A program made the position numbers and the translations under genes. The notes beneath the pieces are model-generated. The model saw only the letters and a list, made by a program, of their open reading frames with translations, was not told where the DNA came from and made no database searches. This document shows positions 7,106 to 64,000 of a stretch of DNA of 64,000 bases, one piece after another. Every line of letters starts with the position of its first letter. Position 1 is the stretch's first letter. The stretch is from assembly GCA_021229015.1 (NCBI GenBank), contig CM037794.1, forward strand, positions 39,961,496 to 40,025,495, written 5' to 3'. The DNA is from Solen grandis (taxonomy: Eukaryota > Mollusca > Bivalvia > Adapedonta > Solenidae).

Positions 7106-7345
7106 AACCCTTTCCCTCATATAGACTCATTTTGACGCACTCAATAGGTACCACATAAAGCCTGATCTGCAGAAAACCACAGTTAAACCTTACCTTATTT
7201 AATTACAAAATCCTCATTTCCAGACCACTGAGGAGCAGCGAACAGCATAAAACCTGATCAGCCTGCGAGTTACTCGCAGGCTGATCTGGTTTTATGTTGT
7301 TCGCCTAGGTCTTTTCATGGTTTCCTCTATGAGGGAAAGGGTTAA
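7106..7345 (+). mobile_element. MITE copy 3 (240-bp family)
   Basis: Intact copy with terminal inverted repeats and TAA at both flanks. The central palindrome spans 7238-7304: a stem of about 32 bp with a 3-nt loop and one or two mismatches. Confidence 0.85.
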
Positions 7346-10300
7346 AGGACTCTTGTTATATCCTTGTTTGTGGTGAAAACATCAATGTCATCCTTCGTCA
7401 GATCATGCAAATTTCAAAAGGTCATGGATCCGTTTATCGTTTTATGTTCCAGAAAGCTAGAGTTCTATTACAAATTAACACATATCCTGATGTAAATCTT
7501 TATAAAGCCATTCACACTTCTCATTAACCAGCCCCCACCCCCTCAGCACACACAATCTAATAATAACAAGAAAGATATTTGGCACCGATGGGATATAATG
7601 TAAAGCGTCCCTAACACTGGAGTTGAGTAACTGTCCTGTAAGCATATGGAGAAGGTGAAATAGAGTATGATAAACTGCATTGAAAAAACTAAATATTTAT
7701 CAAAGAAACTAATTCATTCCAAATACTTCATTGTCCATGAATTCTAAGCATGTTTCAGCTAGTTGTGCGTAAACTTTTTTTCTCAACCAATGAAAATCAT
7801 TCAAATATTCATTTGGTCTTTATTTGTGTCATCATCAATAGATTGGTCAAATTTGAGATGAGATAGCTATGCTGAAAAAAGAAATAATATCACAGTATAT
7901 GCATTGTGTACTTCAGGTTCATCCAAAACAAAGGAAGGATTCTACTGTTCTAGAAAATAATCTGAAATAATAATAATCAGTTCAAAGAAAATCAAAATTA
8001 ACTAGTTTTTTGGCCTAGTATCAAATTTACTATTCAGTGATTTAATGAGTAATTCCATATTCCTCACAGTGATTGTGAAGCCATTTAAAAGACAATCAAA
8101 GAGAAAACATAGTCTTGTTTGAGAGACCGTCTTGTTTCAGTGTCTTTTGATGTTTGGTTTCATTTCAAAAGAAGGTGGGCATGCAGGACATTTAGAAACA
8201 CTGAATGTGTTGCTTGAATCTTTCCCCAGGAGGCAGATTTTATTTTTAAATTCCTAAGGGACGGAGATTTGCTAAAATCAAAAGCTGCAGACGGAAATTG
8301 TGACCAAGAGTATTTCCAAGTTTGTCTCATCGATTCTTTCAAAATCATGACTGTTGGATATCCTCTTTTGTAAACTGGCTGTCCCTCTATTTGGTAGCTG
8401 GACCTTTGATGAGATATCACAGAATAAGATTTTTATCATCTCAAAATTTGAAAAAACTTAGAAGTCCCTGATTTACTGGTAAAGTGATTAAAACTGTTGA
8501 ATTTATGACATTATTGGCGTGTTTTGACATAACTGGTCTTGAATCTAATTTCTTTAAAATTTCAAAATTAGGGTAGTACTGTATTTTAATTTAGAATTAT
8601 TTGAATTTAATTGAGATGTTGCATGAAACACAAGCCAGTTGAAATGTTTTGTTGTTGTTGTTGTTGAAACAGTGGTGTTGTTGAGTTTGTGTACACCGAC
8701 ATCAGCCCTGCATTCATTTATCCCTCAAAGTCCACAACGTTAGCGTTTGTATCCCTGTTGTATCGTAGTGTATAGAGTGTAAGCAGGGAACCAAATCCGT
8801 AACATTTGCTAGCATTATGTTTAACCGAACGCAGCCCAGGTACCTGCAATATCAACAGACCTCAGTTTAATGATTACTGTTTTTTGCTTAAAAAAAGGAT
8901 AATTTAAAGTGTATAGATGCAGATAACTCATATGTTGACCTTAGCCTTTTCCTAACCAGAGCACTTATCTCTTAATCTCATTGATTGCCCTTAAGCCAGA
9001 AGGCCAGCTTAAGCCTAGCAAAAGAATAGCATGGCAGAATATCTGAATTGTTTTTGTCCATCAATTTGCTTTTGATGTTTCTTAATTGTGCTGTAATTCC
9101 AGTATCAATATGATACAAAATGAATATTTCATGACCTTTTTAGGCACAATTTAGTACTTAGGTCTAACCTAAGACCTGTCAAGAGAAATATTTTATGTTG
9201 TAAGAACTTGTTTGCAATTAATGTAAAAAAAATATAAGTAAAACAGATTAAAAAAAAAAAAAATAGATGATAATCAATGCAGAACAAATATAGCCTTCCA
9301 GAGTGGAAAATGTCTATAAAAAGTATATTGAAGTGACCCATTGAATATAAATAAGTATGTCAATGATCTTTCAACAGTTCTAAAGAGTTCTTGTATTGAC
9401 ATAAGACCACCTGCGTGAAAGCTTCTGTATTCACGTGCAGTTGCAATAACCATTGTGCCAAACTTGCAGATGGACATTGTATTTAAGTGTTCCTTTTTAC
9501 AGATCCTAAGCCAAATAAATGATTCATATTCATAAATAAAATGTATATGGAGAAGTCGGTGCAAAACTATTTTAACTGCTCCTTGATATGCAGTTACCAT
9601 AGTTTTGAAGCAATCTCACGATACATGTATTATAATGCCCTTAATCCATATATTTTGTAGCAGCCATGAAAATAACTAATGGAAATCCATAGACCTATTT
9701 ATTACAGTTATATACGTAACTGATTGTAGGATTGTCAATCCAGAAATCCAAAATGTCATCAAAAATGGCCACCATTAATTGTCACTAAAGTGAAAATATT
9801 ATAACTTAAATGATACAATTTTTGATAAAGGTACCAGCACATCAGTGTAACAATAATTATATAACTTTTATATAATTTAAAGTTGTAGTTGGGTGTGTCG
9901 GAGTAATGGTCAAGGTCACTGTGACTAAATATAAAAAGTGTTGTCATGGCTTCATGCTGTTGGGGTATAAATCCCTTTCAGTGATTGCTTTAGTTGGACA
10001 TGTTTTCTTATCTATATTTATCAGTTTTTATTTGAACATTCTTCTGATTGTAATTTTTTGTATAAAACAAGGGACATAACTCTTGCATATTTCCTTGCAA
10101 TACTTATATCAGAATAAATTGTATCTCTATTTTAATTGTGTGTATTTTTCAATGCTTGAACCATTATTCTCATTCCATTGTGTAAATCTTTAATCTCAGA
10201 TTATCAATGTCATCTCAGTTGGATAGTTATTTACTGCCAAATAGTTTTCTCCCCAGCAGCTGTTTTTCATTTAACCAATACGATGAGATATGTTGAAATA

Positions 10301-12957: not shown

Positions 12958-15040
12958 TCATGTTCATCCATGTGTATCATTTCATCAGTGATGTATCATG
13001 TTCATCTATGGTGTATCATGTTCATCAGTGATGTATCATGTTCATCCATGGTGAATCATGTTCATCCATGGTGTATCATGTTCATCAGTGATGTATCACG
13101 TTCATCCATGGTGTATCATGTTCATCCATGGTGTATCATGTTCACCAGTGATGTATCATGTTCATCATTGGTGAATCATGTTCATCAGTGATGTATCATG
13201 TTCATCCATGGTGTATCATGTTCATCAGTGATGTATCATGTTCATCCATGGTGTATCATGTTCATCCATGGTGTATCATGTTCGCCAGTGATGTATCATG
13301 TTCATCATTGGTGAATCATGTTCACCAGTGATGTATCATGTTCATCATTGGTGAATCATGTTCACCAGTGATGTATCATGTTCATCCATGGTGTATCATG
13401 TTCACCAGTGATGTATCATGTTCATCAGTGGTGTATCATGTTCATCAGTGGTATATCATGTTCACAAGTGATGTATCATGTTCACCAGTGATGTATCATG
13501 TTCATCCATGGTGTATCATGTTCATCAGTGGTAAATCATGTTCACCAGTGATGTATCATGTTCATCAGTGTTGTATCATGTTCATCAGTGGTGAATCATA
13601 TTCACCAGTGATGTATCATGTTCATCCATGGTGTATCATGTTCACCAGTCGTGTATCATGTTCACCAGTGATGTATCATGTTCATCAGTGGTGTATCATG
13701 TTCATCAGTGGTATATCATGTTCACCAGTGATGTATCATGTTCATCAGTGGTAAATCATGTTCACCAGTGATGTATCATGTTCATCCATGGTGTATCATG
13801 TTCATCCATGGTGTATCACGTTCACCAGTGATGTATCATGTTCATCCATGATGTATCATGTTCATCCATGGTGTATCATGTTCATCAGTGATGTATCATG
13901 TTCATCAATGTTGTATCATGTTCATCAGTGATGTATCATGTTCATCCATGGTGTATCATGTTCATCAGTGGTGTATCATGTTCATCAGTGATATATCATG
14001 TTCATCAATGGTGTATCATGTTCATCAGTGATGTATCATGTTCATCCATGGTGTATCATGTTCACCAGTGATGTATCATGTTCATCTATGGTGTATCATG
14101 TTCACCAGTGATGTATCATGTTCATCAATGGTGTATCATGTTCATCAGTGATGTATCATGTTCATCAATGGTGTATCATGTTCATCATGGTGTATCATGT
14201 TCATCAATGGTGTATCATGTTCATCAATGGTGTATCATGTTCACCAGTGATGTATCATGTTCATCAATGGTGTATCATGTTCATCAGTGATGTATCATGT
14301 TCATCAATGGTGTATCATGTTCATCAATGGTGTATCATGTTCATCAGTGATGTATCATGTTCATCCATGGTGTATCATGTTCACCAGTGATGTTCATCCA
14401 TGGTGTATCATGTTCATCCATGGTGTATCATGTTCACCAGTGATGTATCATGTTCATCCATGGTGTATCATGTTCACCAGTGATGTTTATCCATGGTGTA
14501 TCATGTTCATCCATGATGTATATCATGGTGTATCATGTTCATCCATGGTGTATCATGTTCATCAATGGTGTATCATGTTCATCCATGATGTATCATGTTC
14601 ATCCATGGTGTATCATGTTCACCAGTGATGTATCATGTTCATCAATGGTGTATCATGTTCATCAATGGTGTATCATGTTCATCCATGATGTATCATGTTC
14701 ATCAGTGATGTATCATGTTCATCCATGGTGTATCATGTTCATCAGTGATGTATCATGTTCATCCATGGTGTATCACATTCATCAGTGATGTATCATGTTC
14801 ATGCATGGTGTATTTCCATAATGATCATCCAATGATATTTTATTTTATCATCTATGGTGTATCATGTTTATCCATAATGTATCATGTCCATCAATGATCA
14901 TCCATGGTGTATCATGTTCATGGTGTATCATGTTTATCCATAATGTATCATGTCCATCAATGATCATCCATGGTGTATCATGTTCATGGTGTATCATGTT
15001 CATTGTATCATGTCATCATGATTATGTGTATCTTCATGGT
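12958..15040 (+). repeat. 2.1-kb satellite of 20-bp units
   Basis: Roughly 90-100 units of 20 bp. Two main variants differ in the middle: "ttcatccatggtgtatcatg" and "ttcatcagtgatgtatcatg". The register is exact for most of 12958-14180, then small deletions shift it (near 14185, 14392, 14487 and 14520). From about 14850 a 74-bp block containing "tttatccataatgtatcatg" is duplicated. Because 20 is not a multiple of 3, stop-free frames come out as 20-residue repeats. They end wherever a TGA-bearing variant falls in frame, so these ORFs are by-products. Confidence 0.95.
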
Positions 15041-16147
15041 GTATTGGTGTTCACCCCAGGAAACTGCACCATTAAACCATCAGCTTTAGATATCTGTAGT
15101 CTCCAAATTATCTGCTCATGGAATACTATAATAAATATCTTTATGCTGATTTCTGTTTCATGGCACCATGCCTCTAGGCATTATGTTGTCTACTGGAGTT
15201 CAACTAAGGTTCAAAACAAGTGTCAATAGCTTTCCCAGGAGAAGGTCTTTTTTTTTTAAAGTTTTTCTTTTCTTTTTTTTTGGTTCCAGAAATTCTCATG
15301 ATAGCAAAAGGCAGTAACAGAAATGCAATCACAGGAAGACTTATGAAGACTTTGTCCAATCATTAAAAACTGCCAGTGGATGGCCAGAGAATATTCCAGA
15401 TATCATGCCCTGGTTTTATAGCTTGAAAAACATTTTTGATGAACTGTTGTATTTTGGAAATAATTTAGAATATAGCCACAGAAGGTTTTCATCAAGTAAG
15501 TGAGTATATTAATATCTTGACCCTCTAGAAATTATTATCACACATGGCCTCTGCTGCGACCTTCAGAAAGTATGGCAGAAGCAAAGAGGGTGTGTCAAGG
15601 CAATAGCTGGCCATCTGTGATATATTGGACATTCCGATCAGTGACACTAAGTTTGATAAATGTGGTGGGGGATGCTAGTCTCTCCAGAGAAGGACATTAA
15701 GAAAGTTTCTAAGGCCTAGATGTGTCTGATGGAAGTGTAATCACCATGGTATCGACAGGTCATAAATATTTGTAGCGTGGTGTGCATTGTGATGTTTTCA
15801 AGGGAGACATCTCAACAGTTTTGGTTTTGTTTAGGTTTATTCTGATTAAAACTGAATATGTTTTTCCTTTCTCTAATTACAAAATTGTTTTTCCCTACTT
15901 TAATCACAAAATTATTCCTCCCTTCTCTGACTTCAAACTGTTTCTCCCTGGTCTGTTAAAGCTTGATGGGATAATATGCATGTTAGGACATTTTTCAAAA
16001 GGTATATATTTTTAAGCCCTTTTTTGGAAATTAAGGCTATACAGAATAATGCCTATAGGATTCAAACTTGTCCTGTATCATTGCTTTACCATTCTTTTCC
16101 AATCATGCTAAAAAGGGATCAGTCATTGCTTTTACTGTAACTCCAGC
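15041..16147. other. Non-coding host DNA
   Basis: No convincing exon or repeat. The 77-residue ORF near 15782 is a T-rich degenerate tandem stretch ("tctctaattacaaa" and "tttaatcacaaaatt" variants). Confidence 0.45.
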
Positions 16148-53634: not shown

Positions 53635-54029
53635 GTAGGTCTTCTATTGTATTTATTCTTAAGGTAATCCATCCATCATACAATTATGATCATCTCCGTC
53701 AAGTGGTTGTAGGATTTTTACAGTAAATACTAGCCTTTATAAACTTTGAACAAAAGAGCCTATAACTTCAAGTCAATGGATGCTTGCATCTGCACTGAAG
53801 TCTTTTTAAGCATTTGAAGACCATGATTGACAATCGTCAAGGAGATTGAATAAAAAAACCCACATGCGACCTAAAAATACACCAAAGATCTAATAACCAG
53901 ACAGAGATCCGCAACTCTGACATATATAAGTAAAGGTCAAGCCAAGAGAGGCTCTCGTTATGTGTACGATAATGGGACCGCGATATAATTTGAGATGTAT
54001 AAAATTGTTCATACCAGTTATAGAAGTAG
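53635..54029. other. Intron-like sequence up to the Polinton edge
   Basis: No further METTL24-like exon is visible. The reverse-strand ORF overlapping here has no supporting features. Confidence 0.45.
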
Positions 54030-54045
54030 TATAGGGTGGCACTAT

Positions 54046-54124
54046 GGTACCAAGGTACCATAAATTTTTTTTTTTTATGGTACCGTGGTACCATAAATTT
54101 TTTTTTTTTGGTACTTATGGTACC
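54046..54124. repeat. Cluster of five GGTACC palindromes at the element's left edge
   Basis: GGTACC occurs at 54046, 54054, 54079, 54087 and 54119, plus GGTACT at 54110. They come in pairs around two T-rich tracts (54065-54076 and 54098-54109). Position at the presumed terminus suggests part of the terminal inverted repeat. Confidence 0.8.
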
Positions 54125-54125
54125 A

Positions 54126-54236
54126 AATCTATAGTACCGAATGGTACTCTATATGAAAACAGAATCTATAGTACCGAATGGTACTCTATATGAAAACAGA
54201 ATCTATAGTACCGAATGGTACTCTATATGAAAACAG
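54126..54236 (+). repeat. Three exact 37-bp tandem repeats with an internal palindrome
   Basis: Units start at 54126, 54163 and 54200, so the period is exactly 37. Each contains AGTACCGAATGGTACT, a 6-bp inverted repeat around gaat that echoes the neighbouring GGTACC sites. Confidence 0.95.
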
Positions 54237-54274
54237 ATTTATGTAAAATTGTAAAAATGACAATTGTAAAAATG

Positions 54275-54311
54275 TCCTTTCGAGACATTTGGGTTGGCCC
54301 AGAAAAGGGCC
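54275..54311 (-). terminator. Histone-type mRNA 3' stem-loop and downstream purine element
   Basis: On the minus strand the sequence reads GGCCCTTTTCTGGGCC (54311 down to 54296). It has the size and loop (TTTC) of the stem-loop that ends metazoan replication-dependent histone mRNAs, except that the sixth base pair is T-T where the consensus has T-A. AAAAC precedes it. GAAAGGA follows after exactly 14 nt (54281 down to 54275), in the place of the histone downstream element that pairs with U7 snRNA. It lies 43 nt beyond the stop of the minus-strand gene at 54354. Confidence 0.7.
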
Positions 54312-54353
54312 GTTTTATGAATTGTGGTCCATACCACATGTTGTACAGTCCCA

Positions 54354-54692
54354 TCACATATTGTGGTCTATACCACACGTTTGACAGTCCCATCCCATGA
54401 CATATCTCTTCATCCATCCTGCAAGGAGATGCAAATGACAACGGGTTAGATCCTTGTCACCTATGAAGTTCAGGCTGTCTCCCGATCCCTGTAGTAGGGT
54501 AGATGGTACATCTTCAAAGGTAACTGACAGGTAATTAGGGAGATCTCCCCTTTTTGTAAGAGTGACATATAGATCATACACATCAACTTGGTCGTGATAG
54601 CTGTCTGGGTCGCTCTCTCGTTCCTCATAGCTGGGACTGTCGAGGAACAATTTTAGCAAGTCTGGGGTGGACCTACGTGTGTACGGTCTCAT
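54354..54692 (-). CDS. Unknown Polinton left-end protein, 112 aa
   Basis: I do not recognise this protein. It begins with a basic segment (MRPYTRRS), is acidic and Tyr/Asp-rich around residues 20-45, and ends with a CxxC...H segment (CQTCGIDH). The ATG at 54692 lies 41 nt after a minus-strand TATAAAA (54733-54739), which supports the start. After its TGA stop the same frame continues for 12 more codons encoding a second CxxC...H unit before a TAA at 54315, just before the histone-type stem-loop. The TGA may therefore be a nonsense mutation or a read-through site. It is divergent from the gene at 54940 and shares its promoter. Real coding status is inferred from the promoter and 3' signals. 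Confidence 0.6.
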   Translation of the reverse strand: MRPYTRRSTPDLLKLFLDSPSYEERESDPDSYHDQVDVYDLYVTLTKRGDLPNYLSVTFEDVPSTLLQGSGDSLNFIGDKDLTRCHLHLLAGWMKRYVMGWDCQTCGIDHNM

Positions 54693-54732
54693 GTTTCAAT
54701 CATGAATAATAAAGTATAGAGTATGTGCACTG

Positions 54733-54906
54733 TTTTATAGTACCGGATTGACCTACTTTCTTGTGTTGGCGCACACCAATCAGAGAACGTTATTTTTTCA
54801 TCCAATAAATCAAGTTCGACCTTGACCTGAGTTAGATAGCATTGTCTTCGGCCTTGACATTTTGGGGTGGATTGACCTACTAACCTACTTTTTCTTGACT
54901 ATAAAT
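54733..54906. promoter_or_regulatory. Divergent promoter with two TATA and two CCAAT boxes
   Basis: TATAAAA on the minus strand (54733-54739) faces the gene at 54692, and TATAAAT on the plus strand (54900-54906) faces the gene at 54940. Between them are CCAATCAGA (54776) and CCAATAAAT (54802). The 13-mer GGATTGACCTACT occurs twice, at 54745-54757 and 54869-54881, each just outside one TATA box. This layout resembles divergent histone gene promoters. Confidence 0.7.
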
Positions 54907-54939
54907 TGTGAAATGCTGTGTATGTATTCATTCTTCACC

Positions 54940-55155
54940 ATGAATTTCCTTCGTAAGTTATTCCGACGTGCAAGGAAGGTGTTACGAAAGGAGAAGAAAG
55001 TAGAAGTCAAGGAAGAGGGTATAAAGGAAGAGGGTGTCAACTTGTACCCGAGTTTACCCCCTTTGCCATTGTACCCGGATTTGTCAGGGTTTTACCTGGC
55101 AAATCCAGAAGCCAGCAGGCATTACTGGCGGTATTTGTATTTGAGTGAGTGCTAG
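54940..55155 (+). CDS. Small basic Polinton left-end protein, 71 aa
   Basis: I do not recognise this protein. The N-terminus is strongly basic (FRRARKVLRKEKK), followed by a short Lys/Glu repeat (VKEEGIKEEGV), a Pro/Leu/Tyr-rich middle and an aromatic C-terminal part. I chose the ATG at 54940 because it has a good CACCATG context and lies 34 nt after TATAAAT (54900-54906). An in-frame upstream ATG at 54862 would lie before that TATA box. The gene ends 19 nt before a histone-type stem-loop. It is not a histone. A DNA-binding or nuclear role is only a guess from charge. Confidence 0.65.
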   Translation: MNFLRKLFRRARKVLRKEKKVEVKEEGIKEEGVNLYPSLPPLPLYPDLSGFYLANPEASRHYWRYLYLSEC

Positions 55156-55174
55156 ACACTTCTCAATAAATAAC

Positions 55175-55211
55175 GGTCCTTTTCAGGACCATTACAATGA
55201 TGTAGAAAGGA
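55175..55211 (+). terminator. Histone-type mRNA 3' stem-loop and downstream purine element
   Basis: GGTCCTTTTCAGGACC (55175-55190) fits the metazoan histone stem-loop consensus at every position: a 6-bp stem and a TTTC loop. It is preceded by AATAAC. GAAAGGA follows after exactly 14 nt (55205-55211), as at the other end of the module. An AATAAA at 55165-55170 lies just before it, so conventional polyadenylation is also possible. Confidence 0.85.
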
Positions 55212-55238
55212 TAACTAATACAATTGTCATATGATTTT

Positions 55239-55244
55239 TTTATT
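55239..55244 (-). terminator. Candidate poly(A) signal of the zinc-knuckle gene
   Basis: AATAAA on the minus strand, about 95 nt after the stop at 55339. No histone-type stem-loop is present at this gene's end. Confidence 0.5.
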
Positions 55245-55338
55245 GTGTTTAACAACAAACATGTGTCAGTAACAATGAATTAAACGTGCGTCATACAGCA
55301 AATAATGAACATAACACAACTTTGTTTTTTTTTCAAGT

Positions 55339-55875
55339 CTAGTGTTCAAATGTCATTTTTCGCTTCTTAGCTGGTCGGTTACACTCTGTATTGCTTGTTG
55401 ATGGGTGAGGCTCAGGACACACGATGCATGTGGTGACGCTTCTCTTGCGTTTCTTGGGTTTTACGGTAGGTTTCTCCAACTCAGAGACAGTCTCTAGTAG
55501 CTCAACATCACTGTCCGTCTGTGGCACTGTCTCAACTACGTCATTTTCTGCATTTCACTGTCCACCTGTGCGTTTACTGTAGGTACAGTACTATTCATCC
55601 CTTTCTTAGGACAAGCGGATGCAAAGTGGCCTAGTTCGTGACAACTGTAGCACACTGTAGGTTTTGGGCAATTAGAAACAAAATGTCCCGGTTCATGACA
55701 ACGGTAGCACACCCGTGCTGTTTGAGGTGTTGAAGCTTTCTTCGGCCGATGCATAATGCCCCTTTTCCTGACAGCGGTAGCATGTCACTTGTCTTTCTGT
55801 TTCTAGTCTGATCAGCTTGTCACTGATAGCTTGTAGTTGTCCTTTCACCCAGAACTCAAATGTATTGCAGGTCAT
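55339..55875 (-). pseudogene. CCHC zinc-knuckle protein gene, broken by two frameshifts
   Basis: Three pieces in different frames line up on the minus strand: 55875-55747, 55754-55536 and 55527-55339. They encode a short N-terminal region, three CCHC knuckles (C-x2-C-x4-H-x4-C), then a Ser/Thr-rich tail with KKRKR and AKKRKM clusters that look like nuclear localisation signals. Knuckle 1 (CYRCQEKGHYAS) loses its last Cys at the first shift; knuckles 2 and 3 are complete. The second shift, near 55546-55552, falls in an A4 run. I chose the ATG at 55875 because a minus-strand TATAAA lies at 55936-55941. Zinc knuckles bind single-stranded nucleic acid (family knowledge). The breaks could be real or assembly errors. 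Confidence 0.75.
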
Positions 55876-55935
55876 TCTGAACAGAGCAGTCTGAATCAGG
55901 TTTGAGAGTGATGAAGTGGACGGGTCACACCGCAC

Positions 55936-55981
55936 TTTATAGGCCTGAGATCAGGTGGGCGGAGCTTAGATGTATAAAAAA
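55936..55981. promoter_or_regulatory. Compact divergent promoter between zinc-knuckle and polymerase genes
   Basis: TATAAA on the minus strand (55936-55941) and TATAAAAAA on the plus strand (55973-55981) are separated by 31 bp that include GGGCGG (55957-55962), an Sp1-type GC box. The plus TATA lies 30 nt before the ATG at 56011. Confidence 0.75.
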
Positions 55982-56010
55982 GCTTTGCTCACTTACTTAT
56001 AATCACAACG

Positions 56011-59000
56011 ATGTTGAGTAGTGAAGAAAGCAGCGATGATGATGAGCCACCTGCAAAAAAGACCAAGAGTGATATACGGGAATATTATTCCATACAGCCA
56101 CGGTCACAGAGAACTTCAAGAAAGTTTAAAACGAAGGGCCACGTGTACGATGTTACATTTGAAAGATATAAAAAACCGTTTGAATTTACACATCAACTTT
56201 TCAATGACATGGTGAAACAGTTATACAGAGAAGCACGGGTCAATGACAACGATCAAATTCGTATCTCCATAAATCATCCTGACCTAGCATTTGGTATCCA
56301 CATTCCTTTCGGGAATGCAACACCAATTTCAGGAGATACGCTGTTGAACGAAATAGAGAAAGTATCACAAAGCAACCACAAGTTTGAGATTCATGACGGG
56401 GATCTCCAGTTAGAATGACACATGTCATTATGCCCGAGGGAGGTGGAAGAACAAAAAGAAACGTTTGGATCGCACCTAAGCATTGAGAACATGTCCAAAG
56501 TCAAACGAAGTATGATAAAGATAGACAATGTTCACGACAGTATGTGTTTGGCACGATCAATTGTGGTAGGGATATGTAAACTCAATAAAACGGACGATAC
56601 AGCCTGGAAGAAGCGATGGAATTTGATGAGACAATCTGCAAAATTTCTTCAAAGCCAAGAAGCCAAGACATTGTTAGATAGTGTGGGCATTAGTCCAAAT
56701 CAGCCTTGTGGTATAGAAGAATACAAGAAGATTCAAGCCCACCTTTATCCAGACTATGTGATCAAAGTGTGGCCACAATTTGAGAAAATGGACGTGTTGT
56801 TCAATCACCCACCTCTGACAGACAAAAGCAAAGTGATTCACATTTATCATCATGATAAACATTATGATTGCATTACATCAATCACTGGTTTCCTGGGATG
56901 CAGCTACTTCTGTGAACACTGTAACTACGGTTATAACAACAGAGAAGCTCACTGGTGTAAGAATATTTGTCGGTGTTACGCCTTGACACTATGCCCAAAA
57001 GAAGGATTCTTTCCATGTGGTCACTGTGGTAGAACATTTCATAGTCAGAAATGTTTTGATCAGCACAAAGCGAAACCAGGAAAATCTACAAAAAACATCT
57101 GTGAAAGTGTATGGCAATGCAAGACCTGTGGTCAAATGGTTGTGGGTACAAAGAAGAACCATCTCTGTCCTGGCACTAAAAAAATGCAAGTATTGCAAGA
57201 AAGTTGTGGATGCAGAACACCAGTGTTATATCCCCACGTACAAAGAACCAGAGAACATGAAGTCACCGACTGTACCTTTCATTTCTTTGACTTTGAGTGT
57301 CGATTTGATTCGGGTGAACATATACCAAACTTTTGTGTTGCTCAACGTGCTTGTGGAGACTGTATGTGTCAATCCATGAAAAACCCGTGTCAGAAATGCG
57401 AAGCTGTGGATGAGCCTAGAGAAAAAATATTTCGTGGTAACAACACTTTGTCAGAATTTTGTACATGGCTGTTTCAACCCAGTCACAAAGGTACCACAGT
57501 GATTGCTCACAACTCACAAGGATATGATGCACAGTTTATTTTGAGGCACTTACTGACACATGATACAGCCAAACCAAAATTGATCATGAATGGAAGCAAA
57601 ATTCTAATGATGAAAGCCCATCAAGTGAGATTCATCGACTCACTGAGTTTTCTCAACATGCCTTTGTCCGATTTCCCCGACACGTTTGGATTGACTGAGA
57701 TGGCAAAAGGATGGTTTCCATTTTATGCCAACACGGATGAATACCAAGACTACATTGGAGACTATCTCCCCGTACATTTTTACAGACCCGACAGCATGAA
57801 ACCTGACAAGAGAGAAGCGTTTCTGAAATGGTACAATGCAAAAGTGGCACAAAAGGCTGTGTTTCACTTTCAGTTAGAAATGCAAAAGTACTGCAAATCA
57901 GATGTGGACATCTTGAGACGAGGTTGTGGAGAGTTTAGGAAAGAACTGTTGGTCAGTGACCAAATTGATCCGTTCCTGGAAGCGACCACTCTAGCTCAAG
58001 TGTGCTACAAAGCTTGGCGTAAAAATTCAATGCCTCCAAAGACCTTGGCTGTAATCTCTGATGCCGGGTATCCAAACAAAACTCGATACTCAATCAAAGG
58101 GATTCGTTGGATAGAAACAACTGCTTCCATTGAGAATAAGCACATTCGCCATGCATTAAATGGAGGTGAAGTACAAATTGGACCCTATTACGTTGACGGA
58201 TTCCACAAAGAGACGAACACCGTATACGAATTCATGGGGTGCTGGACACACGGATGTCCAAATTGTTACCAAGGAGAGACAGTGTGAACGGTTACACACT
58301 TCAAACTATGGAGCAGTTATACAATGCCACAACTTTTCGGTTGAAAGACTTGTCTCAACAAGGTTACAACACAGTTGTAATGTGGGAATGTGACTTTGAT
58401 CAGAAATGCAAGATTGAACCGGGATGCTTTGTTTGGTGGACGAACCAATGCCATTCAATTATACCATGAAGTGGATACAACCACCAAGGAAGAAATTAAG
58501 TATGCTGACATTTGCTCACTGTATCCATTCGTGAACAAGTACAAAACATACCCCGTGGGACATCCCAACATCTTAAGTCAAGAGATGATTGATATAAACA
58601 ACATTGGAATGTACAAGGGACTCATCAAATGTCGTGTATTGCCACCCCAAGACCCGTGGCTACCAGTCCTACCTATTCACTGTAACAAGAAAATGATCTT
58701 TACACTGTGCCGTACCTGTGCTGAGGAAGAGTGTGAAAAATGCAATCACACTCTGTACAAACGCATGTTGACAGGTACCTGGACCCATGTGGAAATAGCC
58801 AAAGCTCTTGAGGTAGGATACCAATTGGTAGACGTCTTCCACATCTGGCACTGGGACGCATGGAGTAAAGATGTGTATAAACAGTATATTAACAAATACT
58901 TGAAATTGAAACAAGAAGCAAGTGGTTACCCTAATTGGGTAAAAACAGAAGATGATGAAGCCCGCTTTAAACAGAATTACTTTCAGATAGAGGGTATCTG

Positions 59001-59766
59001 GCTCGACAACGTGAAAAAGAACAAAGGAAAAAGAGCGTTTGCCAAAACCATGTTGAACTGTTTGTGGGGTAAGAATGCACAAAACAATGTTCAAACCAAA
59101 ACCGAGTATGTGACTAAGGTGAACCGGTTGTATGACCTACTCTCCGACCGTCATGTCACTGTGCAGTTTGCCGAGATTTTCGATCATGACAACTTCATGT
59201 TGGTGAATTACTCGGATGAAACAGACGCAACACAGCCCCATTCATCTTCAAATCCAGTGGTAGCTGCCTTCGTTACGTCCTATGCTCGACTTGAACTTTA
59301 CACCCAGTTGGAAAAACTTGGAGATCGGGTACTGTATTTTGACACAGACAGTTGTATGTACATCTATGACCCTGACCAGTACAACATTCCAATTGAAGAG
59401 AGCCAGTTGGGAAAGTGGACAGATGAAGTACCACATGGACGCATTGTCAAATTCGTGGCATTAGGGCCAAAAAACTATGGGTATGAATATATCGATGAAA
59501 AAGGAAATCGACATCAGAAATGCAAAGTAAAAGGCATCACTTTGGATTACAATGCTAGTCAAAAAGTCAATTTTAAGACTATGGTCAACTGTGTACAAGA
59601 TCGCAAACATTACAAGACAGTCATCGAATATGAATCCCGAATCAAGAGACATAGAAATCGCAAAGTGATCAGTGAGACACAGACCAAGACGTTCCGCTCA
59701 GTGTATACAAAGCGCGTGGTCGTGGACAAATATAAGACAGTGCCGTACGGTTACCGACCGGCATAA
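56011..59766 (+). pseudogene. Polinton protein-primed family-B DNA polymerase, frameshifted
   Basis: Replicates the element from a protein primer (family knowledge). The N-terminal piece (56011-56418) is acidic, then basic. After two compensating shifts (near 56415 and 56490) the frame at 56422-58287 carries CxxC zinc-binding pairs (about 56905-57170) and the 3'-5' exonuclease motifs: FDFEC (about 57288), AHNSQGYDAQF (about 57505) and YCKSDVDIL (57889). Shifts near 58265 and 58410 then separate it from the polymerase part at 58390-59766, with motif A (DICSLYP, 58507), motif B (AKTMLNCLWGK, 59041) and motif C (DTDS, 59341). All catalytic acids are present, so decay is mild. The join near 58410 also seems to lack some residues compared with the family. 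The total of about 1250 codons is normal for Polinton PolB. Start supported by TATAAAAAA at 55973. Confidence 0.9.
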
Positions 59767-59828
59767 CCAGTTGGCTTGTAGTCGTGTTGCATAGCCTGAA
59801 CGGTGGTGGAAACATACGGAGATTCACG

Positions 59829-60449
59829 ATGAACACTCTACCAGTAGAAATACAACAGATGATCTACAGACATCTCGTTGAAGCTAATAAGAAACCTGCT
59901 GCATTTTGCAACGAGTTATTTTTCACTTGGGCACAGCGCGTTGGAAACAGAATAATTCACCAGACGATGAAGGATTCCTCTTGTTTAAACCAAGTTTATG
60001 ATATGTTTCATGATGTACGAGGGCGTAATCTTCCAATCAGCTATAAAAGTGTGGTCTTTCAACGGATTTTTGCCATTTACAACCTGCTACGCAACCTGAT
60101 CTCTGACGTGTGGTACATATACATTGAGACCCTAAACATTGATACAGTGGAGAAACTGAACCGTTTTGATGAGCGTATGTATCTCAGATTTGCGATTAAC
60201 CACCGGAACGACACACCAGAGGATATACGTGCCATTTTACTGACTCCAGAACCTATCACTTGTGAGCAAGTGTTTAACATTTTTGGTAAACAGTGCAGCG
60301 CAATATTCAAACAAACGAGGCCAAATCCTAGTGAACAGTTCTTTCAAGATCCCGATTTCAACAACTTAGAAAGGTTTGAGTTGGGAGACGAATCCCTCTG
60401 GGACACCTACAAAATAAGATACTACGCAGAGTACTTGCAAGACGAATGA
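59829..60449 (+). CDS. F-box-like protein, 206 aa
   Basis: The ATG at 59829 is the first in the frame; the frame is open back to 59784 with only non-ATG codons. Residues 3-18 (TLPVEIQQMIYRHLVE) fit the start of an F-box (LPxEIxxxIxxxL), the module that binds SKP1 in SCF ubiquitin ligases (family knowledge). The rest is predicted helical with no repeat domain I recognise. It lies 62 nt after the polymerase stop and its end overlaps the next gene by 4 nt (ATGA), so it may be read from a polymerase or polycistronic transcript. The F-box assignment rests on a short motif and could be chance. Confidence 0.7.
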   Translation: MNTLPVEIQQMIYRHLVEANKKPAAFCNELFFTWAQRVGNRIIHQTMKDSSCLNQVYDMFHDVRGRNLPISYKSVVFQRIFAIYNLLRNLISDVWYIYIETLNIDTVEKLNRFDERMYLRFAINHRNDTPEDIRAILLTPEPITCEQVFNIFGKQCSAIFKQTRPNPSEQFFQDPDFNNLERFELGDESLWDTYKIRYYAEYLQDE

Positions 60450-60703
60450 GAAGTCAAAACATGGGAAATACTTCACTACAGGAAAAAAACATAACTCCAA
60501 TTCGGAATCCATGGCGTAGAGCTGTGTTGTTGGCTGTGCGTGTACTTGGAATTCAATCAGAACAGGCGTTAAGACAATCGGAGGAACTGTTTGACGAAGT
60601 GTGCATGGCTTTAAATGCTATGGGATATACCATGATATTGCCGGAATGGATGATGTATAAAGAAAGACTGATTCATGATGTGTGTCATAGTTTACATTTT
60701 TGA
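60446..60703 (+). CDS. Small unknown protein, 85 aa
   Basis: Starts inside the preceding stop (ATGA overlap). A second ATG at 60461 gives an N-terminus MGNTSLQ, which resembles an N-myristoylation signal. The rest is a likely helical body (residues about 22-60) with many Met, Leu and Glu. I recognise no family. Either start is possible. Confidence 0.6.
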   Translation: MRSQNMGNTSLQEKNITPIRNPWRRAVLLAVRVLGIQSEQALRQSEELFDEVCMALNAMGYTMILPEWMMYKERLIHDVCHSLHF

Positions 60704-60738
60704 CTGATGTTTGTTCAAGTGTTTTATTTGCTATGATG

Positions 60739-60746
60739 TATAAAAT
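60739..60746 (+). promoter_or_regulatory. TATA box for the ATPase gene
   Basis: TATAAAAT lies 44 nt before the ATG at 60790 and after the preceding stop. Confidence 0.5.
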
Positions 60747-60789
60747 AAAATGTTGTCATGTCAATGCTGTTATTATTTCTTGGACCATC

Positions 60790-61371
60790 ATGGAAAGTAG
60801 TTTACTTTTTCAACATCCTAGTAACATTTTCATCTCAGGGCCAAGTGGTTCAGGAAAAACTCAATTTGTAAAAAAACTTATTGAGTACAAAACCGAATTA
60901 TTTCATGCGGTACCACAACGCATCGTCTGGTGTTACAAAGAATGGCAAAGTGCCTACGCACAGTTACAAGAACGTGAAGCTATCAAATTCATTCAGGGTA
61001 TCCCTGAGGATGATGAAGAGATAGTAGACGATACAACCTTACCACACCTCGTCATATTTGATGATATGTTAGGAGAAAAAGATGAGGAGAAAATTAAATT
61101 ATGGTTCACGCGAAAGGGACACCATAGAAATGCCACTGTCATTTACATCACACAAAACATGTTCCAACAATCCAAGGCTAGTCGTACCATCAGCTTAAAT
61201 GCACACTACATGGTATTATTTCAAAACACAAGAGATAAAGGCCAGATCAAAACACTTGCGAACCAAATACAACTACCCCATTTGGTGATGGCGTATCAAG
61301 ATGCAACCTCTACACCTCATGGATATCTTATCATTGACTTTCACCAAGAACACCCGACCAGAATCGTTTAA
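60790..61371 (+). CDS. A32-type genome-packaging ATPase, 193 aa
   Basis: FtsK/HerA-superfamily ATPase that pumps DNA into capsids in Polintons and related viruses (family knowledge). Walker A GPSGSGKT lies at about residues 17-24, Walker B HLVIFDDM at about 91-98 and the polar motif YITQN at about 122-126. The length is typical for the family. The open frame extends upstream to 60700 but contains only a TTG there and passes through a TATA box (60739-60746); I therefore chose the ATG at 60790, which starts just before the conserved core. No break is seen in this gene. Confidence 0.92.
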   Translation: MESSLLFQHPSNIFISGPSGSGKTQFVKKLIEYKTELFHAVPQRIVWCYKEWQSAYAQLQEREAIKFIQGIPEDDEEIVDDTTLPHLVIFDDMLGEKDEEKIKLWFTRKGHHRNATVIYITQNMFQQSKASRTISLNAHYMVLFQNTRDKGQIKTLANQIQLPHLVMAYQDATSTPHGYLIIDFHQEHPTRIV

Positions 61372-61434
61372 GAACAGATGTGTTCCATCGGTGGGTAACA
61401 GGTGAAGATCGAGGACCGACAGTCTACACTACAG

Positions 61435-61442
61435 TATAAAAT
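61435..61442 (+). promoter_or_regulatory. TATA box before the 291-aa protein gene
   Basis: TATAAAAT ends 10 nt before the ATG at 61452. A TATA box usually places the transcript start 25-30 nt downstream (about 61465), so the ATG at 61485 may be the real start. Confidence 0.55.
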
Positions 61443-61451
61443 GATAGGAAC

Positions 61452-62327
61452 ATGACACCGATCATCATTAAGGATACACCTACCATGGAAAACACACCAC
61501 ATACAGTGATCAAAGCTCTAGAATCGTTGAGTCGGGAAAAGAACCCAACGAAACGACAAGAGCTGGTAGAATCAGGATTAACAGAGATGGTAAAATGGTT
61601 CACCTTAGCTGCACGACTCATCTTAGAGAAAAAAGTAACCGTGGCAAAACAGACGATGAATTTTATGGAACGCAACAAAGACAATTTAAGACAGTTAGCT
61701 GATCAACATGTGGATCTGGCCACAAAACGACAACTTATTTTAAAACCTGGTGGTGGAGGTTTCCTTGGGGGCACCATCATTCGTACACTGCTTCGATGGA
61801 ACGGGACCAAAGCTGTGAGAAAATTTGGTCCAGTAGCAAGAAAACAACCACCCAAACGAAAGTCACCAGCCAGGAAACAAACAAGGAAGAAGCAGACATT
61901 GCCTCATGATCGATTTGTCACTGTAAGAAGAAAACGCTCTGTAACAACTGGAACACCAAAAGTGTCCCCCATACTGATTCGACGTGATGTTACATCAGGG
62001 ACATCATCCAAAGCATCACCACTTGTGGCCCCATTCTCTCCACTGACCTCATCTACTCCCCGTTCTAATAGAAGTTCGATGAGGTCTGGGTTGGCTACAC
62101 CACAAGGATCAATGACAGTTTCACCAAACCCTACAGTTCGACGACAATTGTTTGACCTTTCCAATTCTTCAAGTGGGCGTTCCTCATCATCATCATCATC
62201 AAGATTTTCACCAATCCCAAGTCTCCATTCCCCATTACCTACTGCCATTACTGCGATGAGAAATTCAGGACCACTGAGTAGTGCTGGCAATATCGCTTTA
62301 CAAGCCCTTCAACAGTGGTATAAATAA
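61452..62327 (+). CDS. Basic, Ser/Thr/Pro-rich virion-type protein, 291 aa
   Basis: Unknown name. Domains in order: helical N-terminal region (about 15-95), a Gly-rich hydrophobic segment GGGGFLGGTIIRTLLRW (about 101-117), a very basic stretch rich in RKQ/KKR (about 120-150), a long Ser/Thr/Pro region with an 8-Ser run (about 165-265), and a short conserved-looking C-terminus. Such proteins accompany the ATPase in Polintons. The basic part suggests DNA contact and the GG-hydrophobic segment suggests a protease-exposed or membrane-active peptide (inference). Its TAA stop is part of the TATA box of the next gene. ATG 61485 is an alternative start, favoured by TATA spacing. Confidence 0.75.
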   Translation: MTPIIIKDTPTMENTPHTVIKALESLSREKNPTKRQELVESGLTEMVKWFTLAARLILEKKVTVAKQTMNFMERNKDNLRQLADQHVDLATKRQLILKPGGGGFLGGTIIRTLLRWNGTKAVRKFGPVARKQPPKRKSPARKQTRKKQTLPHDRFVTVRRKRSVTTGTPKVSPILIRRDVTSGTSSKASPLVAPFSPLTSSTPRSNRSSMRSGLATPQGSMTVSPNPTVRRQLFDLSNSSSGRSSSSSSSRFSPIPSLHSPLPTAITAMRNSGPLSSAGNIALQALQQWYK

Positions 62328-62329
62328 AA
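62319..62329 (+). promoter_or_regulatory. TATA box overlapping a stop codon
   Basis: TATAAATAAAA includes the last codons (TAT AAA) and the TAA stop of the upstream gene and lies 31 nt before the ATG at 62361, the normal spacing. Confidence 0.65.
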
Positions 62330-62360
62330 GAGACCAAACATTTCATCATCATTTGTCATC

Positions 62361-62717
62361 ATGAAGCGCAAACAACCACTCGTTCGTAAACATGGCAAAA
62401 TGTTGCTTGCTTTGACAGAAACCACGCCCAAATTTCGAAAGAAGATTATTCAAGAAGCACCAAAAGAATTGGTAGATTGTATTGCTGAATGTTGTCAAAA
62501 CATTTTAAAAGGCAATGTACCACTGTCGGAGGCTCAGAAGCGTCGATTGCATTCTAAGAGACAACAGCTCCGACAGTTAGCGACCAAGAAAGTATCAGTT
62601 CGAAAAAAGAAAATCATTCTCAATCAGAAAGGTGGTTTTCTACCCCTGCTGGCACTTGCACCACTCTTAGCCAAAACAATTATACCTCTTGCTGGTGAAC
62701 TCATTCGGAAAATATGA
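62361..62717 (+). CDS. Small basic Polinton protein with hydrophobic C-terminus, 118 aa
   Basis: Lys/Arg-rich throughout, with a helical middle containing AECCQN (about residues 44-49). After IILNQKGGFLPLL (about 88-100) it ends in a hydrophobic segment of about 25 residues. The GGF junction resembles the one in the neighbouring 291-aa protein. Adenovirus-type proteases cut after GG-containing sites (family knowledge), so this could be a processed core or membrane-lytic protein; that is inference. I recall relatives in many invertebrate Polintons, without a settled name. It overlaps the next gene by 4 nt (ATGA). Confidence 0.75.
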   Translation: MKRKQPLVRKHGKMLLALTETTPKFRKKIIQEAPKELVDCIAECCQNILKGNVPLSEAQKRRLHSKRQQLRQLATKKVSVRKKKIILNQKGGFLPLLALAPLLAKTIIPLAGELIRKI

Positions 62718-63448
62718 AGAAGATGGCCTATGTTCCAGTTCGGTTGTTGGAAGAGATGAATCGTTGGAAGAAGGAACAACGACCTCGGTTACCCCCATCC
62801 CCTCAAGTGAGTCAGACTTCATCATTACAGAAAGAAATGAATCAAGTTCTTGACGACAATCAATTGTCTGAGTCAGAAAAAGCACAACAATTTGGAGAAG
62901 TATTACATCGCTTTCAAGTGTCACATAAAAAAGCACTCAAACCCTTCAGACCACACATGGCTGAGAAAACAACAAGTACAGTGACTGAAAAGAAAGAGGA
63001 AAAACCGATGACCTTGAAAGATCAAATTCTAGACAGTGTTCCTAAGACCATGCGACGAAAGGCTACTCTTTTGTTAAACATGTTGAAAGACCATCCTCAC
63101 TTAAGTTGGGATGAACATGGCCTGTTAGAATATGATGGAAAACCCGTTGAAGGTTCAAATATTATTGATCTGGTCAATGATGTACTTCGGCAGCGGAAAG
63201 GGTCAAATCCACGAGGATGGGAACAATTTTCTAGAGGACTGAAAGAGGTCAACATCCCACAAGAAGTTGTGGGCAATAAACGTCGATGGAATTTCATACA
63301 AACACCAGATGATGATGAAGAAGAAGAGGAGGAGGAGGATGAATTTTATGATAGTTTTGCCTACGCACCTACATCAAAGAAACGAAGACCTATTAAAAAG
63401 GAAGAACCCGAGGAGATATTAGCCCATTCGTCATGGGCCGCCTACTAA
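62714..63448 (+). CDS. Conserved Polinton protein next to the integrase, 244 aa
   Basis: Residues about 10-80 are charged and helical. Residues about 105-200 form a compact segment with TLKDQILDSVPKTMRRKATL (start) and later GKPVEGSNIIDLVNDVLRQR, which I recall as a conserved block adjacent to Polinton integrases in many invertebrates; its function is unknown. A 13-residue acidic run (DDDEEEEEEEDEF) and a KKRRPIKK cluster follow at the C-terminus. It starts with a 4-nt overlap with the gene before and overlaps the integrase ATG by 16 nt, so translation of the three is probably linked. Confidence 0.75.
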   Translation: MKKMAYVPVRLLEEMNRWKKEQRPRLPPSPQVSQTSSLQKEMNQVLDDNQLSESEKAQQFGEVLHRFQVSHKKALKPFRPHMAEKTTSTVTEKKEEKPMTLKDQILDSVPKTMRRKATLLLNMLKDHPHLSWDEHGLLEYDGKPVEGSNIIDLVNDVLRQRKGSNPRGWEQFSRGLKEVNIPQEVVGNKRRWNFIQTPDDDEEEEEEEDEFYDSFAYAPTSKKRRPIKKEEPEEILAHSSWAAY

Positions 63449-64000
63449 AGAAGGACACGTTACTTCGTCACCTGTACTATGATACTGATAATCCTACGAG
63501 TTTTGGAGGAATTCAGGGACTCTACAAGGCAGCGAAAAAACAGTTGAAATCTATCACTTTAGAGGATGTACGAGACTGGTTGAGAAGTCAAAGAACCTAC
63601 ACGTTGCATAAAACAATACGACGAAAATTTCGACGTCGACAGGACTGTGGTAGGAGGTATCATCAATGGCAAGCTGATCTCGCAGATATGCAACGTATGT
63701 ACAAAGATAATTCACCATATCGCTACTTACTATGTGTCATTGATGTGTTTCAAAATATGCTTGGGTAATACCCATCATTGACAAAACTGGAAAGACGCTC
63801 ATCCAAGCCTTTCAGTCTATTCTAAAAGAAGGCCGAAAACCACTCTCTTTGCAAACAGACAAAGGCCGAGAATTTTTGAACAAAGACTTTCAGAAGTTTC
63901 TAGACAAGCATGACATTCATTTCTTCACGTCTGAAAACCCAGAAAACTAAAGCGAGTATTGTTGAACGTTTTCAACGTACGCTTAAATCAAGAATGTGGA
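63433..64000 (+). pseudogene. Polinton DDE integrase, frameshifted and cut by the window edge
   Basis: Retroviral-type integrase that inserts the element (family knowledge). The first frame runs 63433-63768 and includes a basic N-terminal part and the first catalytic Asp (QADLADM, about 63673). A one-base shift near 63748, in a TTTCAAAA stretch, moves the catalytic core to another frame with the second Asp (LQTDKGREF, about 63853). A second shift near 63946 moves on to the segment holding the catalytic Glu (about 63962). All three acids of the DDE triad are still encoded. The C-terminal part, including any chromodomain, lies beyond 64000. Confidence 0.88.

Follow-up and report, generated by a model that had tools for sequence, protein, structure and literature searches.

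In animals, the histone pathway forms the 3' ends of replication-dependent histone mRNAs. SLBP binds a hairpin, U7 snRNP pairs with an element located downstream, and the transcript is cut a few nucleotides past the hairpin at a CA. The hairpin (Rfam family RF00032, Histone3, histone 3' UTR) has a 6-bp stem with a GG-CC base and a 4-nt loop whose first and third positions are U. It lies a short distance after the stop codon, in a CA cleavage context, and is followed about 14-15 nt downstream by a purine element. To our knowledge, no earlier class of non-histone genes with 3' ends of this kind is on record. The coupling of histone-type mRNA ends to replication in animals is established knowledge (see PMC2781718). 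A hairpin and a poly(A) signal are not mutually exclusive, since the bdelloid H2A variants H2Abd and H2Abd1 carry both in one 3' UTR (PMC2642717, in the parts covered); the products in that case are histones.

Polintons (Mavericks) and adintoviruses of animals carry a type B DNA polymerase (polB, PF03175), an A32-type ATPase and an RVE integrase. In a survey of Polinton-like viruses, 6 histone 3' UTR stem-loops were counted in 8,300 genomes (PMC12220804, in the parts covered). These stem-loops belong to the same Rfam family at its gathering cut-off and to elements of a wider group. In the covered parts of the survey they appear as a bare count, with nothing said on which genes adjoin them, where they lie, which elements follow downstream or what they mean. 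A full-text literature search for "Polinton" with "histone mRNA" found no paper. The sequence-only reading from which the present work started knew of no description of such a feature for Polintons. In the literature searched, among the matches listed, no analysis was found that links such ends to non-histone genes at the edge of an element together with a U7-type element, or that treats the meaning of this arrangement. Detection as such in the wider group is already printed as that count.

The window, that is, the whole stretch of 64,000 nt of Solen grandis DNA that was analysed, contains such an element. Judged by its genes, the last 10 kb of the window holds the left part of a Polinton. The following features were assigned to this part.

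54043..54237, no strand: tandem repeats from repeat finding (33-nt GGTACC palindromic unit; 37-nt unit present three times)
56422..59766, plus strand: DNA polymerase B region made of two ORFs (56422-58287 and 58390-59766), PF03175, interrupted in this copy
60700..61371, plus strand: A32-type packaging ATPase (PF04665, E 3.4e-6)
63433..63768, plus strand: N-terminal part of an RVE-type integrase relative, whose ORF stops early (40% identity to the integrase of L003, a distant relative described below)

In a Pfam search, the two polB ORFs match PF03175 with E-values of 5e-14 and 1.6e-26. In a protein search, the best polB matches come from Mercenaria, the top one being a protein of Mercenaria mercenaria at 63% identity; Mya and Lottia are among the named matches that follow. 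The integrase-like ORF is without a Pfam match of its own. With polB, the A32-type ATPase and the truncated integrase relative all located to the right of the gene pair considered below, the label "Polinton left end" proposed from the letters alone is fitting. The repeats at 54043-54237 would be part of the left terminal region of the element and are a candidate terminal inverted repeat. The element extends beyond the window end at 64000, and its right end and capsid genes lie outside the window. Frames are broken at 58285-58390 in polB and at 63768 in the integrase. Because both genes are interrupted, this Polinton copy may be inactive; alternatively, the assembly may be faulty. Two further observations concern coding potential in the window. 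On the minus strand at 55536-55875, CCHC zinc-knuckle-like ORFs were recognised by eye in overlapping frames (55536-55754 and 55693-55875); they are perhaps one gene, broken in this copy. At 13338-15229, a long minisatellite-like array gives rise to ORFs that overlap one another and encode a repeated peptide (CIMFTSDVSCSPVMYHVH...).

To the left of polB and beside the 54043-54237 repeats, two small ORFs diverge from a common intergenic region. Each is followed by a set of 3'-end signals.

54354..54692, minus strand: ORF of 112 aa, without recognised homologue
54693..54939, no strand: divergent promoter region with TATA, CCAAT and E2F-like words
54940..55155, plus strand: ORF of 71 aa, without recognised homologue
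55165..55170, plus strand: AATAAA, a rival poly(A) signal between the stop codon and the stem-loop, 4 nt before the hairpin
55175..55190, plus strand: stem-loop GGTCCTTTTCAGGACC with 6/6 pairs and a UUUC loop, 19 nt past the stop codon
55205..55211, plus strand: purine element GAAAGGA, candidate histone downstream element, 14 nt past the stem-loop
55220..55230, plus strand: ACAATTGTCAT, an 11-mer common to both 3' flanks, beyond GAAAGGA
54296..54311, minus strand: stem-loop GGCCCTTTTCTGGGCC, 5/6 pairs, loop UUUC, 42 nt after the stop codon
54275..54281, minus strand: purine element GAAAGGA, candidate histone downstream element, 14 nt past the stem-loop
54257..54267, minus strand: ACAATTGTCAT, the same 11-mer, beyond GAAAGGA

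The sequence-only reading had reported a histone-type 16-nt stem-loop at the end of each divergent gene, complete in the plus gene and off at one stem position in the minus gene, each followed after exactly 14 nt by the same GAAAGGA. All these elements were found where claimed, the single departure being a U-U in place of the loop-closing U-A of the minus hairpin. The two 3' ends share more than had been reported then, namely ACAATTGTCAT beyond GAAAGGA. The presence of both GAAAGGA and this 11-mer in the two flanks indicates that the 3' modules are probably of common origin, and the two 3' ends of the window should then not be counted as two independent cases. The nucleotides that immediately follow the hairpin are AACCCA in the minus gene and ATTACA in the plus gene, both with CA at +5/+6. 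Thus, the window pair displays a hairpin, a CA at +5/+6, a purine element at constant distance and a short 3' UTR. In the minus gene, a CATAAA is located 34 nt after the stop codon and 2 nt before the hairpin. For the minus RNA, folding predicts a competing 7-bp hairpin that takes up the GGA of GAAAGGA, which could hinder U7. Compared with shuffled sequences, the folding stability is moderate for the plus hairpin (z -1.86, 13/200 as stable) and strong for the minus hairpin (z -3.39, 1/200 as stable), the latter value being partly due to the second, competing hairpin. Immediately ahead of the minus hairpin, a 39-nt tandem duplication (54321-54398) extends over the end of the minus ORF into its 3' UTR.

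No homologue of either small product was found in protein, Pfam, PHROGs and PDB searches. The earlier statement that neither is a histone agrees with the lack of a histone match in the Pfam, PHROGs or PDB searches. Two weak matches were set aside as chance: those of the plus product in the PDB (16 rows, best E only 0.32) and that of the minus product in Pfam (below cut-off, E 0.036). A resemblance to adenovirus-type early regulators, considered for the minus product, was dropped, as no search result backs it. The plus ORF has a further in-frame ATG upstream, at 54913; starting there, it would be 80 aa long instead of 71. Between the two ORFs, TATAAA occurs on both strands, at 54900 for the plus gene (40 nt before the ATG) and at 54739 for the minus gene (47 nt before the ATG). 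CCAAT is found at 54776 and 54802, an E2F-like TTGGCGC at 54766 and CATTC at 54929. These words may be bound by the corresponding factors.

In a scan of 10.5 kb against 4227 Rfam families, the plus hairpin matches RF00032 with 30.7 bits and E 1.3e-5, the lowest E-value among the 15 Rfam matches of that stretch. The minus hairpin scores 20.7 bits (E 0.07) in the same scan. Both scores are below the curated gathering cut-off of the family (34 bits), and scanning the whole window at the gathering cut-off gave no match. RF00032 is absent from the 26 Rfam rows obtained in the other 53.5 kb of the window. As compared with animal histone genes, the genes considered here are not histones and reside in a mobile element. 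Their hairpins fall below the Rfam cut-off, one of them is devoid of the loop-closing pair, and AATAAA stands beside the plus hairpin.

A relative was obtained by applying two polB-alignment peptide patterns to 84,980 prokaryote species genomes. Among the 27 stretches retrieved, the sole confirmed relative is L003, an 8.9-kb contig in a metagenome-assembled genome labelled Bacteroidia, the polB of which is 36% identical to that of the window. Its other genes include an integrase that weakly matches a chromodomain, a homologue of the TATA-binding protein and a C2H2 zinc-finger ORF. Because of this gene content, L003 is probably a mis-binned eukaryotic contig. Two other ORFs, without Pfam match, are taken for capsid and protease genes from their order and look. 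The zinc-finger ORF (89 aa) is at the far end of the contig, 346 bp from the TATA-binding-protein gene. Its compact setting suggests that it lies inside the element, of which the contig shows no identified end.

The hairpin of L003, CGGCCCTTATCAGGGCCACCCCA, is located 28 nt after the zinc-finger stop codon, with 6/6 pairs and a UAUC loop. It matches RF00032 with 35.8 bits (E 1.5e-7), above the cut-off, and is the best of three Rfam rows up to E 5 (8.9 kb, every family). Downstream of it are found ACCCCA and AAAAAAGAGA, with AAAGAGA as purine element after 15 nt; CA occurs at +5/+6 in all three cases. AATAAA also occurs some 70 nt beyond the hairpin. A model built from the window pair only (R2) scores the L003 hairpin at 31.1 bits (E 2.9e-4), the next best being 12.8 (13 loci, 127.7 kb). 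R2 alone serves as evidence, since a second model (R1) was built from all three hairpins and its high scores on them are circular. The plus hairpin has U-A at one stem position where the minus and L003 hairpins have C-G; covariation over three sequences is not significant (148/500 shuffles as high). The one relative obtained carries such a hairpin (one of one), which is a small sample. The purine element of L003 differs from that of the window pair, with AAAGAGA after 15 nt in place of GAAAGGA after 14 nt.

Two other observations were made on L003. The TATA-binding-protein homologue (7189-7695, minus strand; 168 aa) matches PF00352 in two stretches (E 1.2e-27) and its gene lies 52 bp from the Polinton integrase gene; this element seems to carry its own TATA-binding protein. 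In addition, the stretch 7870-7960, in the 346-bp divergent promoter of the TATA-binding-protein and zinc-finger genes, contains a CCAAT box along with TGACGTCA (CRE) sites, three in number.

Scans of viral contigs yielded no confirmed relative (0 loci each), whether the query was polB of the window, an alignment of polB sequences, the capsid-like protein of L003, an integrase alignment or the polB of Mya arenaria. Searching viral contigs for the bare hairpin pattern gave 10 loci, which were rejected as chance: they fall into two repeated contexts and none of the 10 matches Histone3 at the gathering cut-off. Two loci with the hairpin and a spaced GAAAG, nearly identical to each other and inside a long ORF, were rejected likewise. 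The contigs with the hairpin pattern are probably phage contigs.

Taken together, the putative histone-type 3'-end signals on non-histone Polinton genes, present in two diverged elements, represent a real and surprising feature. The initial proposal of such signals in the window is supported and has been strengthened by one independent, distant Polinton contig with a match above the cut-off in a comparable place. We think it probable that the two genes at the left edge of the Polinton end in replication-dependent histone-type 3'-end signals that work, or worked until recently, and that are used via the SLBP/U7 histone processing pathway. Use of SLBP and U7 together with S-phase timing is a plausible reading of the motif, its spacing, the short 3' UTRs and the promoter words. 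According to this model, the 16-nt stem-loop would fold in the transcript and be bound by the host SLBP, and U7 snRNP would pair with the purine element GAAAGGA. Cleavage of the pre-mRNA would then take place some 5-6 nt past the hairpin, following the CA of AACCCA or ATTACA. The resulting mRNA, devoid of poly(A), would be stable and translated mainly during host DNA replication. Combined with the divergent CCAAT/TATA promoter, such processing would confine both terminal genes, presumed to be early ones, to S phase, the time at which a DNA element is able to copy itself; this timing would follow naturally from use of the pathway. Lack of poly(A) and an early role of the two proteins are what we infer from the arrangement as a whole. 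Such elements may in this way borrow the timing machinery of the cell itself. Whether a broad clade of animal Polintons and adintoviruses places its terminal early genes under the host SLBP, U7 and S-phase promoter system, with genes and U7-type elements that differ between lineages, appears to us evenly balanced.

Other explanations have to be weighed. That the hairpins arose by chance is extremely improbable, even though some figures taken in isolation would accommodate it. The one-mismatch consensus alone is common and not significant (4 matches, with at least 4 in 18 of 100 shuffles). Similarly, 9 of 1000 dinucleotide shuffles of 54028-64000 have at least two hairpins of the class, one of them perfect; none of these 9, though, also has a shared 7-mer at one offset. 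Across the 64 kb, 9 hairpins belong to a relaxed class, and of these the plus hairpin alone has six pairs. No ATG ORF of more than 44 aa terminates shortly before any of the 7 hairpins that lie outside the element, as against 112 and 80 aa for the two considered here. That scan of upstream ORFs required TT at the loop start, so the L003 hairpin (loop TATC) is outside its class. Chance is opposed by Rfam E-values of 1.3e-5 and 1.5e-7 in two separate contigs, by the similar geometry and the same position relative to the stop codons, and by the match of L003 to a model built without it. A relic of host capture is also conceivable: the 3' end of a histone gene would have been picked up, perhaps once, duplicated to both genes and carried along without function. 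GAAAGGA and the 11-mer in both flanks would be expected of one duplicated module, and the interrupted polB and integrase of this copy are in keeping with such a view. Nevertheless, the stem pair that differs (U-A or C-G) stays paired, a single and not significant change, the distances from stop codon to hairpin are short in all three cases, and the second element has its hairpin on a different gene with a different purine element (AAAGAGA). A functionless relic is thus very unlikely, while capture as an origin is compatible with present function.

Ordinary polyadenylation is a live rival with somewhat more in its favour, yet we hold it to be unlikely. The transcripts would end by means of AATAAA in the plus gene and CATAAA in the minus gene, cleavage would occur just past the hairpins, and the hairpins would be auxiliary or incidental. 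The position of these hexamers, 4 nt and 2 nt before the respective hairpins, implies that ordinary polyadenylation could serve. In the plus gene, the CA at 55195-55196 is 26 nt after the end of AATAAA, a normal distance for poly(A) cleavage, and L003 has its AATAAA about 70 nt after the hairpin. However, CATAAA is a weak poly(A) signal. Moreover, polyadenylation leaves unexplained the histone-consensus hairpin, the identical GAAAGGA at +14 and the hairpin of L003 above the cut-off. Finally, the hairpins may be real while the role of SLBP binding lies elsewhere than in S-phase timing as such: in keeping poly(A)-free messages stable, in their export or translation, or in bringing them to the histone locus body. 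This reading, which we regard as possible though on the doubtful side, subdivides the SLBP/U7 explanation rather than opposing it. It draws on the same evidence (the Rfam matches in the window, L003 and the R2 match), and the terminal genes are small single ORFs. It is at odds with the coupling of animal histone-type ends to replication. The CCAAT and E2F-like words of the window, and the CCAAT box and three TGACGTCA sites of L003, also speak for timing: they fit S-phase genes, weakly, as such words are short.

If these elements do use the histone pathway, this would explain in a simple manner how Polinton expression is timed to the replication of host DNA and, if it holds across a broad clade, would amount to a general means by which mobile DNA elements confine expression to the time of DNA copying. 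It would also provide a set of natural non-histone substrates of SLBP and U7, as well as a sequence signature for finding the early genes of such elements. Transcripts of this type would be missed by poly(A)-selected RNA libraries.

As to the two products, AlphaFold single-sequence models are too poor for a fold search. The model of the minus product is uninformative (pLDDT 42.9), and that of the plus product (pLDDT 65.6) has its basic N-terminus modelled as a helix. The LYPxL late-domain motif recruits ALIX in enveloped viruses. Behind its basic helix, the plus product carries LYPSL and LYPDL, which resemble this motif.
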